From positions 3,025 through 25,058 of the IMG/VR virus record IMGVR_UViG_3300006614_000008: a DNA stretch of 22,034 nucleotides, one strand, 5' to 3'. A model generated the notes under the pieces. The model saw only the letters and a list, made by a program, of their open reading frames with translations, was not told the origin of the DNA and did not search any database. The first letter of the stretch is position 1, and every line of letters starts with the position of its first letter. Shown here piece by piece: positions 425 through 6,400 of this stretch. Both the position numbers and the translations under genes were made by a program. Origin of the DNA: a virus.

Positions 425-775
425 ATGGCTGAATTAGAAATTACAGGGCTAGCAGAAATCGATGACGACGGACTGTTCGATGTAATCGAACACAGAGTTG
501 ATAGCGCAATCGAAGAGTATTGCCAGAACATGGACTTCAGCGACGAGATAAATGACTGCATTAGTAGCTACTACTACTGGGGCAAGCTCTTCGAGCGTGA
601 ACTTCCTGACCTGCTTGCACAGTGGGGATATGTCAGCGAAGAGAGAGTAGAAGTCGTTGTGGAGGAAGCGATGAAAGCTACGCAGCCTAAGGATGAGCGA
701 ACTGATGACATTATCGAGATCCTTAAGACTGTCAGCAGTCTCCTCACTGAGTTGTTGGGCAGGCTGGAATCGTGA
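425..775 (+). CDS. Hypothetical acidic early protein, 116 aa
   Basis: Not recognised. The frame is open from an ATG at 386, but the ATG at 425 is chosen because AGGGAG at 413-418 lies at a good distance in front of it and the 386 start has none; the 386 start would also lie inside the inverted repeat at 384-401. The product begins MAELEITGLAEIDDDG and is strongly acidic, with many Asp and Glu, a Tyr-rich stretch (SSYYYW) in the middle and a helical C-terminal part ending TELLGRLES that could oligomerise. It overlaps the next gene by four bases (GTGA), which suggests translational coupling with the GP88-family protein. No catalytic motif or membrane segment is visible. Confidence 0.7.
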   Translation: MAELEITGLAEIDDDGLFDVIEHRVDSAIEEYCQNMDFSDEINDCISSYYYWGKLFERELPDLLAQWGYVSEERVEVVVEEAMKATQPKDERTDDIIEILKTVSSLLTELLGRLES

Positions 776-1563
776 TTGTCAACGTTGGGTTGCCACGCTT
801 AAGTAGTGACCGCAAAGTTGCACCTCTGGTCAGGAAGAAAGGCAAGGGAGTCAATGAGGGAACCCCGAAGGTCAAGAACACCTTCGGGCTTCCCGCCCTT
901 GTCTCCTGTCCTGGGCACACGGAATGGTGCGCCGAAGCTTGTTATGCGTTGGCACTTCAGAACTTTCCAGGCGTCCGTAACTTGGTCCAAGAGAACTGGG
1001 AAATAGTATCCCCACATCTCAACGACACAGACACACTGCACGCCATGCTCAGTGCCATGCTCAGCGAATGCTCTATCGAGTACGTCCGAGCAGGCATACC
1101 GCAAGACGAGTGGGTGTTCCGTCACTTCTGGGACGGTGACATTCCCTCCGCTGCGTTCGCCCAAGCAATCAAACGAGTAGCTGAAGACTTCCCCGAGTTT
1201 CAGTTCTGGTTGTATACGAGAACCTTTAAGGCAGTCCCTCTGCTCATGGGGGTCAGCAATCTAGCTGTCTACCTATCGATAGATAAAGACAACGTGCTAG
1301 ATGCAGTCCGAGTAGAGAAAGCTTTACTGTCCGAACCAATGCTGGCATTCTGTGCCGACACTTGGGAAGAGACTGAAGAGTTAGCTGCCAAGTTTCCACA
1401 CCGACGCAAGGGACCTAAGTGTCCTGAGCTAACAGGTAAAACTCCGATGGTCGTCTGGGACGACGACGGGGTGTTCGGTCGTGGCGCATGTGTCGAATGC
1501 GGCATGTGTATCTACGGTCGCAACAATGTCCGTTTTGCTTCTACCAACAGAAAGGGAGAGTGA
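772..1563 (+). CDS. GP88-family phage protein with cysteine clusters
   Basis: The N-terminal half has the hallmark of the GP88 ('gene product 88') family, known from mycobacteriophages and many aquatic phages: a short basic start, then FGLPALVSCPG and a C-x6-C-x3-C-Y-A stretch (C46, C53, C57). A second cluster near the end is C-x2-C-x2-C (C240, C243, C246), with two more Cys before it (AFCADTW and PKCPEL). The middle has R-H-F-W-D-G-D and W-L-Y-T-R-T-F-K, also typical of the family. The cysteine pattern suggests a bound metal or Fe-S cluster, but that is inference; the family's reaction is not established as far as I know. The start is GTG at 772, overlapping the previous stop as GTGA. The length of 263 residues is normal for this family. 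Confidence 0.75.
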   Translation: MIVNVGLPRLSSDRKVAPLVRKKGKGVNEGTPKVKNTFGLPALVSCPGHTEWCAEACYALALQNFPGVRNLVQENWEIVSPHLNDTDTLHAMLSAMLSECSIEYVRAGIPQDEWVFRHFWDGDIPSAAFAQAIKRVAEDFPEFQFWLYTRTFKAVPLLMGVSNLAVYLSIDKDNVLDAVRVEKALLSEPMLAFCADTWEETEELAAKFPHRRKGPKCPELTGKTPMVVWDDDGVFGRGACVECGMCIYGRNNVRFASTNRKGE

Positions 1564-4390: not shown

Positions 4391-4683
4391 CCTACTCACT
4401 TACCAAACTTCACGAAACATTGAAGAACTATGGGGATACATGCGAGCCTTTAGTTGCTTTGAAACAGTTAGACCAAATCGATTATGAGATTAGGCAACAG
4501 TTAAAGCTGACAAGTTATATGCGTAGACATGCACTGTTGGATGCTGTCTATGCCGAGGGTAACCAAGCACGAGTTGGACGTGAGATTGGGTTATCTAGAC
4601 AAAGAACACATGACATGGTTGAACGGGCACAATTTGAACGTTTGCACAAGGTCAAGCCTCCTTTGGGAGAAGAGGCTGTTTGA
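4387..4683 (+). CDS. Helix-turn-helix protein, probable regulator, 98 aa
   Basis: The ATG at 4387 overlaps the previous TGA (ATGA) and has AAGGA upstream. The C-terminal half contains a helix-turn-helix pattern, N-Q-A-R-V-G-R-E-I-G-L-S-R-Q-R-T-H-D-M-V (about residues 59-78), with a Gly at the turn and R-Q-R-T-H in the place of a recognition helix. This is close to the DNA-binding part of phage and FIS/NtrC-like regulators. The first 55 residues are helical and may dimerise. It is the last gene of the first early block and lies directly in front of a promoter and a palindrome (4759-4779), so it may control the replication operon downstream. That link is inferred from position. Confidence 0.6.
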   Translation: MTYSLTKLHETLKNYGDTCEPLVALKQLDQIDYEIRQQLKLTSYMRRHALLDAVYAEGNQARVGREIGLSRQRTHDMVERAQFERLHKVKPPLGEEAV

Positions 4684-4707
4684 CTTAACTTGTATCCATG
4701 TTAAAAT
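4680..4707 (+). promoter_or_regulatory. Sigma-70-type promoter candidate for the replication operon
   Basis: TTGACT at 4680-4685 and TAAAAT at 4702-4707 are separated by 16 bases; each differs from the consensus at one base. The -35 box overlaps the TGA of the HTH gene. Transcription would start near 4714, inside the left arm of the hairpin at 4704-4739, leaving a leader of about 130 bases before the nuclease gene at 4847. Identified by eye, with no scoring. Confidence 0.45.
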
Positions 4708-4739
4708 GGGGGGAACCCCCAAAAGGGTTCCCCCCATTT
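4704..4739 (+). terminator. Strong hairpin, probable terminator of the first early block
   Basis: A perfect 15-base-pair stem: AAATGGGGGGAACCC at 4704-4718 and its exact complement at 4725-4739, with the six-base loop CCAAAA. The flanking A and T runs form the foot of the stem, so a stem with A on one side and T on the other could work on both strands. A separate T tract after the stem is missing, which lowers certainty. It lies 21 bases after the stop of the HTH gene. Confidence 0.65.
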
Positions 4740-4758: not shown

Positions 4759-4779
4759 ATTTCTAACAATGTTAGAAAT
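4759..4779. promoter_or_regulatory. Operator-like palindrome
   Basis: ATTTCTAACA at 4759-4768 is repeated in inverted form at 4770-4779 around a single central A. It is perfect over ten bases per arm. Its size and symmetry fit a site for a dimeric HTH repressor; the HTH gene ends 76 bases upstream. It lies downstream of the promoter candidate, inside the leader, and could also fold as a short RNA hairpin. Confidence 0.45.
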
Positions 4780-4796: not shown

Positions 4797-4846
4797 GGGT
4801 CGTCCCGTGTCTCCCTGCGGGACGGCCCCACCGAACAGGGAGATAG
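4797..4846 (+). promoter_or_regulatory. Possible RNA pseudoknot covering the ribosome-binding site of the nuclease gene
   Basis: A hairpin has arms at 4797-4807 and 4818-4828 (eleven pairs including one G-U; the inner seven are CGTCCCG with CGGGACG) and a ten-base loop. Eight loop bases, TCTCCCTG at 4810-4817, are exactly complementary to CAGGGAGA at 4836-4843, which contains the Shine-Dalgarno sequence of the ATG at 4847. This is the arrangement of an H-type pseudoknot, with a two-base first loop and a seven-base last loop. If it forms, it would block ribosome entry. Some known riboswitches and autogenous control sites work this way, but no known riboswitch class is recognised here. Confidence 0.42.
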
Positions 4847-5614
4847 ATGATTGAAATACGTTTACGACAGAGTTGGATCAATACGTTCCTTCGATGTCCC
4901 GAGCAGGCACGACAAGAACGCTTAGGTCTTGTATCCCAGAAAGAAACAACAGATTTTCTGAGAGGTAACGCTGTTCACGGAGCCATCGAATACGCAGGAC
5001 GAATGATCATGGCTGGTTTACCCCGTCCTAGTTTGGACGAGGTACTGGAAGTCGCAGAAGAATTTATTGCTACCTACTCATCCGAAGTAGAAGTCTGGCG
5101 TCAGGAGTACGAAGAAGTAGTTGATGTGGTTCGAGCCAACCTTGCGGTTTGGTACGAGGAACTGTTCCCTTCGTTAGATCCTGAGGGAGTTGAGGTTCCG
5201 TTTGAACGTGAGATAGGTAGAAGAGACAACGTTAGGTTGGTTCTCACTGGCACTGTTGATTGGGTAGATAAGTCTGGTGTGCTGTGGGATTGGAAGAATC
5301 CTGGCAGGGAGTATCAAGCTTGGGAGAAGAAGCGTTGGGATATACAATCTCATGCCTATAGTTGGGCGTTGGATGCAACGCATTTCAACTTCGGGGTGAT
5401 GGCTAATGGGAAGCTTCAAATAATTGAGATCGAAAGAACAGAAGAGCACAAGAAAGCTTTTTTGGAATTGTGCTGGTCGATGGTGCCGACAATCATGTCG
5501 GACGCTAAGACTTGGCCTCAGAACTGGGAGGGCTGGCATTGCTCTCCTCTATGGTGTCCTGTCTGGCAGGCAGGCAAATGCCGAGGTGCTCACCTCGGAG
5601 AGAATCCCTGGTAG
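4847..5614 (+). CDS. Cas4/RecB-like PD-(D/E)XK nuclease with probable Fe-S cluster
   Basis: The product has the order of motifs seen in Cas4 and AddB/RecB nucleases: an N-terminal S-W-I-N-T-F-L-R-C-P (C17), R-G-N-A-V-H (H44), L-T-G-T-V-D (D138), W-D-W-K (D148, K150) and D-I-Q-S-H-A-Y (Q167, Y171). Three cysteines near the C-terminus, C232, C237 and C245, together with C17 give the four ligands for a 4Fe-4S cluster in this family. It would be a DNA exonuclease, probably providing single strands for recombination or processing replication intermediates. The length of 255 residues is normal for phage members. It is the first gene of the replication operon, and its start is covered by the possible pseudoknot. 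There is no CRISPR array or cas1, so a role in spacer capture is not supported. Confidence 0.82.
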   Translation: MIEIRLRQSWINTFLRCPEQARQERLGLVSQKETTDFLRGNAVHGAIEYAGRMIMAGLPRPSLDEVLEVAEEFIATYSSEVEVWRQEYEEVVDVVRANLAVWYEELFPSLDPEGVEVPFEREIGRRDNVRLVLTGTVDWVDKSGVLWDWKNPGREYQAWEKKRWDIQSHAYSWALDATHFNFGVMANGKLQIIEIERTEEHKKAFLELCWSMVPTIMSDAKTWPQNWEGWHCSPLWCPVWQAGKCRGAHLGENPW

Positions 5615-5617
5615 GGA
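5581..5617 (+). promoter_or_regulatory. Two adjacent hairpins before the gene at 5630
   Basis: At the 3' end of the nuclease gene, CCGAGGTG and CACCTCGG (5581-5588 and 5591-5598) form a perfect inverted repeat. Seven bases later TCCCT (5605-5609) can pair with AGGGA (5613-5617). The second arm overlaps the AGGGAG that belongs to the ribosome-binding region of the ATG at 5630, although a further AAAGG lies nearer to that start. They may tune expression between the first and second genes of the operon. Confidence 0.3.
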
Positions 5618-5629
5618 GAAAGGTAAATT

Positions 5630-6400
5630 ATGACTGACACAGCGAAAGTGACAGTTAGCTTCACGCAGAAAGTAAGTGAAGCTCCATATGAAACAGCGGA
5701 CTACTCGCTTACTATTGAGCGCAGTGTTCCTGAATCAATGGGAGATGACGGCATTCTTGCCGAGGCGTCTTCCATGTTTGAGCAAGTTAAGAGTGAGGTC
5801 CTGAAACAATCAGGTCAGGAGATGGATCTTTCTCCTGATGGGGTTGTGATGCGACGCCTGAAAAGCGGCGTTTCCAGGTCTTCAGATAGTCAAGCAGGCA
5901 CCGCCTCGCAGACGACTGCAAGTGTCCCTGCTCCGTCAGGACCTACGGCAGCATCCGTAGCGGCTGCACCAGCACCAGCGCAAGCTGCTCCTGCTGGTGG
6001 AACAATCAGCGGTCGCACCTATAAGCGGACTGACTTCTGCACTGGTAAGGGCGCTGACGAACGTCAAGCTGCTTTCAACTTGCTTGCTTTCCACCCCAAT
6101 CAGTGGTCTTTAGACGACGGCACCTTAAAGGTGTACGAAGTTAAGGAATACGCTGACGGGACTACTGACAAGACGAAGACAGGGAAGAACTTCCCGAACT
6201 TCTCAGTCAGTAAGGAAGCACTTTCCCACATTGGTGTTGCCACATCTCGTGATGTTGGTATCTGGGTCAACGACGGAGACAGCAATGTTCCGTTGAAGGT
6301 TTGGAATCAAGCAGCAGGAGAATCTGTTGATGATGCAATCGAATGGGATTGGCTTGCCCGACGAGCAGAACTTCAAGAGTTCGCATATAAGGGCAACTGA
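5630..6400 (+). CDS. Unknown two-domain protein of the replication operon, 256 aa
   Basis: The ATG at 5630 follows AGGGAGAAAGG. The N-terminal domain (about 1-70) has beta-strand-like alternation (KVTVSFTQKVSEAPYETADY, then SLTIERSVPES) and a helix with E-Q-V-K-S-E-V-L. It is joined by an Ala/Pro/Ser/Thr-rich linker (about 90-122) to a C-terminal domain of about 130 residues with G-R-T-Y-K-R-T-D-F, W-S-L-D-D-G-T-L-K-V-Y-E-V and a W-rich acidic end (AIEWDWLARRAELQEF). The place between an exonuclease and a helicase, the flexible linker and the acidic aromatic tail would fit a single-strand DNA-binding or recombination accessory protein, but no such family is recognised. It ends in TGATG with the helicase gene. 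Confidence 0.7.
   Translation: MTDTAKVTVSFTQKVSEAPYETADYSLTIERSVPESMGDDGILAEASSMFEQVKSEVLKQSGQEMDLSPDGVVMRRLKSGVSRSSDSQAGTASQTTASVPAPSGPTAASVAAAPAPAQAAPAGGTISGRTYKRTDFCTGKGADERQAAFNLLAFHPNQWSLDDGTLKVYEVKEYADGTTDKTKTGKNFPNFSVSKEALSHIGVATSRDVGIWVNDGDSNVPLKVWNQAAGESVDDAIEWDWLARRAELQEFAYKGN

Follow-up and report, generated by a model that had tools for sequence, protein, structure and literature searches.

A conserved pseudoknot predicted to cover the Shine-Dalgarno sequence of a Cas4-like nuclease gene in uncultured ocean viruses

In the rpsO (S15) operator and in the SAM-II and preQ1 riboswitches, a crossed stem at the translation start blocks or traps initiation, and these elements combine short stems with conserved nucleotides that bind the respective protein or ligand. 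In contrast, the element described here has a long first stem (S1), 13–20 bp in nearly all leaders, that is free in sequence, and only the loop complementary to the Shine-Dalgarno (SD) sequence, the anti-SD loop, is conserved. The nearest phage parallel is gene 32 of T4 and T2, where an H-type pseudoknot in the 5′ leader is linked to translational control, with gp32 acting autogenously (PMC3014915, which also mentions the rpsO pseudoknot). Both cases concern a leader pseudoknot of a phage replication/recombination gene. However, in gene 32 the pseudoknot sits 67 nt 5′ of the start and serves to nucleate the binding of gp32, with pairing to the SD not described (PMC3014915), whereas here the second stem (S2) involves the SD itself and no SSB-like regulator was found. 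A leader pseudoknot also sets translation of the type I toxin mRNA timP (PMC11228461), but that one pairs two stem-loops and is needed for translation, while here the SD is covered. The STAXI motif (RF01728) likewise places pseudoknots close to genes whose products handle DNA, among them SSB (PMC2864571), but as tandem repeats in Enterobacteriales and as a family without an Rfam match here. Literature searches brought up these analogues and no account of the present element; pseudoknots that sequester the SD are already known, and the novelty lies in an S1 that is very long and sequence-free, combined with the lack of a conserved binding core. Little is known of the regulatory RNAs in uncultured phages, and in this case the comparative evidence suffices for naming a new family.

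The window, the 22,034-nt stretch of an uncultured virus (IMGVR_UViG_3300006614_000008), carries the leader elements, the nuclease gene and gene 2 on the plus strand. The gene concerned (4847–5614) encodes a Cas4/RecB-like PD-(D/E)XK nuclease (PF12705, 1.6e-14; phrog_1218, exonuclease), which matches the TIGR00372 cas4 model weakly (E 3e-4, below the cut-off) and has four invariant cysteines, C17, C232, C237 and C245. The nuclease is followed by gene 2 (5630–6400), a DnaB-like helicase, a primase-like protein and RusA. The pseudoknot would tie post-transcriptional control to the Cas4-like nuclease heading the phage replication operon.

Anatomy and occurrence of the leader pseudoknot

S1 (4797–4828), recovered by the leader scan and by covariation, pairs 4797–4807 with 4818–4828 through 11 base pairs, one of them U-G, and encloses the loop TGTCTCCCTG (4808–4817). 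The loop segment TCTCCCTG (4810–4817) is the exact complement of CAGGGAGA (4836–4843), which contains the nuclease SD and ends 3 bases 5′ of the ATG (4847); in S2, UCUCCCUG at 4810–4817 is the 5′ strand. Upon re-checking of the coordinates, the hairpin of the earlier note with its eight-base complementarity to the ribosome-binding site (RBS) proved exact and even understated: beyond a C.C mismatch, S1 continues with 3 further pairs (4793–4795/4830–4832), and S2 can be extended to 10 pairs via 4808–4809 with 4844–4845. In the 110-nt leader of the window, the best combined stacking of S1 and S2 scores -50.8 kcal/mol, which is reached by none of 2000 dinucleotide-preserving shuffles (mean -21.1, sd 5.3, best -40.2), and in composition-keeping shuffles, 886 of 200,000 have loop and RBS joined by 8 consecutive Watson-Crick pairs. 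The coincidence of hairpin and loop/RBS complementarity in the window is not due to chance. An ordinary nested fold of the leader displays the hairpin alone, as expected where the structure is a pseudoknot. Counting against the proposed operator, a 7-nt match (AGGGAGA) exists between the loop and the gene 2 SD as well, because the SDs in this phage resemble each other.

Relatives were collected by a protein search with the nuclease, which gave 80 viral contigs down to approximately 53% identity, and by three more viral scans, one scan of bacterial/archaeal genomes and one scan with gene 2. After removal of duplicates, 68 distinct leaders had sufficient upstream sequence, 44 of which belong to an SD-bearing clade with nucleases approximately 59–100% identical to the window protein. 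A purpose-made scan for S1 plus S2 recovered the architecture 5′ of the nuclease in 42 of these 44 leaders, representing 16 lineages (groups below approximately 85% protein identity), with L031 and L033 as the two SD-clade leaders lacking it. Across the 42 leaders S1 comprises 10–20 bp, nearly always at least 12, the loop pairs with the SD over 6–12 nt, and at most 1 in 100 shuffles matches the observed score of any leader. Two distinct leaders found via gene 2 instead of the nuclease (L224 and L245) both carry the pseudoknot.

With respect to specificity, a strict version of the scan was applied to 4471 candidate SD-plus-start sites on both strands of 82 contigs (754 kb). The architecture was recovered at the nuclease start in 63 contigs and credibly at no other gene within the 754 kb; the remaining matches are mostly antisense and centre on these leader hairpins, and a few are scattered and look like chance. 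A comparable leader is absent from MW202803, a distant relative from the cultured collection (27% identity), and a DNA-level search of the phage collection gave no match. Cumulatively, the sequence comparisons show that the predicted pseudoknot is conserved, covers the SD and is specific to the nuclease gene.

The relatives at 53–56% identity form a sister clade in which the nuclease has no SD. Here, the last 40 nt before the gene (L067–L080, L170–L196) show a conserved -10-like ATACTG/TACACTG approximately 6 nt before the start codon, which suggests that the nuclease transcripts are leaderless, the SD apparently having been lost and a leaderless-type promoter gained. Most leaders of the sister clade have no significant S2 near the nuclease start. 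Exceptions such as L068, L188 and L189/L190 reach high combined scores, mainly from a strong S1, with an S2 of 5–8 bp that ends 10–15 nt before the start. Upstream of the SD-less nuclease, this clade still has a hairpin whose loop is pyrimidine-rich (CCTCTCC-type); in L071–L076 and L179–L185, a conserved TTTCCTCTCC loop is retained on stems of variable sequence. Pairing of the sister-clade loop with the SD of the next gene was considered as well and is unconvincing (8 bp in L188, 4–7 bp elsewhere).

Compensatory change, geometry and stability

Counted on the nuclease protein tree, S1 shows 85 double, compensatory pair changes versus 42 one-sided ones, an indicative number, as paired positions alone were recorded and homology between distant groups was assigned by distance from the loop. 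In homologous columns within groups, pairing is retained in 100% of the S1 cells. One group has both sides changed at 7 of 15 S1 pairs, which is equalled by none of 500 shuffles, and the window's own group displays C-G/U-A exchanges at two S1 pairs. The sequence of the predicted S1 is almost free, with compensatory substitutions replacing nearly all letters while the fold is kept.

All 42 leaders share the same S2 core, CUCC:GGAG, as expected of a paired SD, and covariation of S2 consequently rests on the flanking positions. These show 6 double changes and 33 gains or losses of edge pairs. When loops were confronted with swapped RBSs among the 16 lineages, the own pairing was better, with 1 in 2000 permutations performing as well; considering the flanking positions alone, 73% are paired versus 62% expected (7 of 5000 permutations). 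Co-varied partners are found, for example, in L044 (GUUAUUCUCCCU with AGGGAGAAUAAC), L032 (GCUUCUCC with GGAGAAGC) and L048 (CCUCUCCC with GGGAGAGG). Paired changes in homologous leaders, which the earlier note had named as a check, speak in favour of both putative stems, strongly for S1 and only at the flanks for S2. Together with the conservation across many related phages, this covariation strongly supports an H-type pseudoknot hiding the nuclease RBS, as had been proposed from the single sequence.

A crude A-form model, which considers the shortest loops able to span each groove (L1 over S2 and L3 over S1), permits an H-type pseudoknot sterically in all 42 leaders. For the window, the best fold in this model is the H-type form that had been suggested, with an S1 of 11 bp, an S2 of 8 bp, an L1 of 2 nt, no L2 and an L3 of 7 nt. 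Full S1 and full S2 cannot coexist in 26 of the 42 leaders, the window included; in those, L3 fits only once 1–5 basal pairs of S1 have opened. Of the 16 lineages, 12 have the anti-SD nearer to the 3′ side of the loop (L1 > L2) and one has it the other way round; this offset is what an H-type fold requires.

The gain in stacking over the bare hairpin is mostly 9–19 kcal/mol, and a pseudoknot typically carries a penalty of about 7–9 kcal/mol. After subtraction of this penalty most of the modelled pseudoknots would be favourable without being extreme. L043 and L047, where the allowed pseudoknot gains 2.4 and 5.7 kcal/mol, below the usual penalty, would not be favourable.

A start closed by default and the alternative readings

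The H-type pseudoknot is very likely a genuine, previously undescribed control switch, and it probably acts as a cis-acting translational operator that keeps the nuclease start closed by default. According to the mechanism proposed, the long, nearly perfect hairpin S1 presents the anti-SD loop, which would pair with the SD of the nuclease itself. With S2 paired, the 30S subunit could not bind and the nuclease would be poorly translated by default. As S1 is transcribed first, the loop would be ready to capture the SD once it appears. Expression of the nuclease would then need the opening of S2, with S1 as the clamp that fixes the threshold, and where S1 and S2 conflict sterically, as in 26 of 42 leaders, the closed state would be only moderately stable and thereby reversible. 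Repression and its strength are here inferred from comparative sequence. Most likely, a DNA-end nuclease that could do harm is kept low by default, perhaps with adjustment by a phage protein. The trigger may be RNase III or a protein that recognises the shape of the RNA, or there may be none, the level of a risky nuclease simply being fixed low. Because the stem sequence is nearly free, the family lends itself to examining to what extent translation can be set by pseudoknot geometry alone.

What might stabilise or relieve the closed state can be weighed against the pattern of conservation. A protein made from the operon, the nuclease or another, may bind and stabilise the pseudoknot when in excess, a tentative reading that adds a protein to the default-closed operator and is compatible with it. 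The element is tied to one gene and stays with it in the contigs examined, and T4 gp32 provides the precedent of a leader pseudoknot bound by the product of its own gene (PMC3014915); however, nothing outside the anti-SD loop is conserved for recognition by a protein, the stem sequence being free. The earlier note had also considered gene 2, its SSB candidate, as the stabilising protein, but gene 2 has no recognisable resemblance to an SSB. Profile searches found no family match for it and no SSB or OB fold was detected by profile or structure; its AlphaFold model, only moderately confident (pLDDT 66.8), matched nothing in the PDB at E<=0.001, and one close viral relative carries no name, so that gene 2 cannot be called an SSB. 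The absence of conserved nucleotides also bears on a small-molecule riboswitch. Its topology would be that of the SD-sequestering pseudoknot riboswitches SAM-II and preQ1, but there are no conserved pocket nucleotides in S1, L1 or L3, and with nothing but the anti-SD loop and the SD conserved a ligand, which had been put forward as a stabilising factor, is highly improbable. Rfam searches of the window and 14 relatives, at gathering and permissive thresholds, gave nothing credible, in agreement with the initial impression that no known riboswitch is present.

The length of S1 invites a different reading, in which RNase III cuts the S1 helix, the clamp is gone, S2 collapses and translation starts, such that nuclease expression would report the activity or timing of RNase III after infection. 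S1 is indeed far longer than a loop presenter needs, sequence-free and nearly perfect, but with an S1 of only 10 bp in L066 and uncultured hosts such a switch appears rather unlikely. It is less likely still that the hairpin is kept for another reason, as a terminator, DNA structure or protein site, and that its match to the SD stems from the commonness of SD-like and anti-SD-like sequences. In favour of this, the CCTCTCC-type loop hairpin persists in the apparently leaderless sister clade, whose nuclease has no SD. On the other hand, no T-run follows S1, own loops outperform swapped ones and the S2 flanks covary, a significant S2 near the start is gone together with the SD in most members of the sister clade, and a credible hairpin of this kind is absent from all other SDs in these genomes. 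Beyond the default-closed operator itself, it is conceivable, though speculative, that the sequence-free, long-stem, SD-sequestering pseudoknot forms a cis-regulatory RNA class of its own, new and confined to phages of marine actinobacteria. It would then clamp a single recombination nuclease mechanically or kinetically, the threshold being set by steric competition of S2 with the S1 base and the clamp being released by RNase III or by a protein of the phage.

Operon, host and the upstream leader

A single RNA switch in front of the whole replication operon, as envisaged earlier, is not supported, as gene 2 possesses its own SD (AGGGAGAAAGG, approximately 5613–5623) 5′ of its ATG at 5630; control of the whole operon would be possible only via translational coupling. 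Gene 2 itself encodes a conserved protein, and its N-terminal beta-hairpin-helix domain bears a weak resemblance to several small phage proteins that are likewise uncharacterised.

The host of these uncultured ocean viruses is probably an actinobacterium, because the phage-collection relatives of a Gp88-like protein (PF17338; window 772–1563) all derive from Mycobacterium and Streptomyces phages and the few matches in bacterial assemblies are contigs of marine Actinomycetota MAGs, which may be binned phage.

The transcript of the nuclease probably starts at an inferred sigma70-like promoter (4680–4707; TTGACT-16-TAAAAT) with 10 of 12 consensus matches and a TG before the second hexamer; similar -10 boxes occur at the same place in many relatives. 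The sequence further reads as a 15-bp, G-rich inverted repeat (4704–4739) overlapping the -10 box, with repeats in the same place, each time of different sequence, in many relatives. The -10 box thereby lies within the 5′ arm of a strong inverted repeat (approximately 4702–4739), likewise in many lineages. The repeat at 4704–4739 may be a hairpin at the 5′ end or the terminator of the preceding unit, merged with the promoter; in the latter case, the full hairpin would form in read-through RNA only. Between this repeat and the pseudoknot, the leader contains a small A/T-rich hairpin, ATTTCTAAC/GTTAGAAAT (4759–4779), which in the close relative L002 shows a compensatory change from C-G to A-T (ATTTATAAC/GTTATAAAT).
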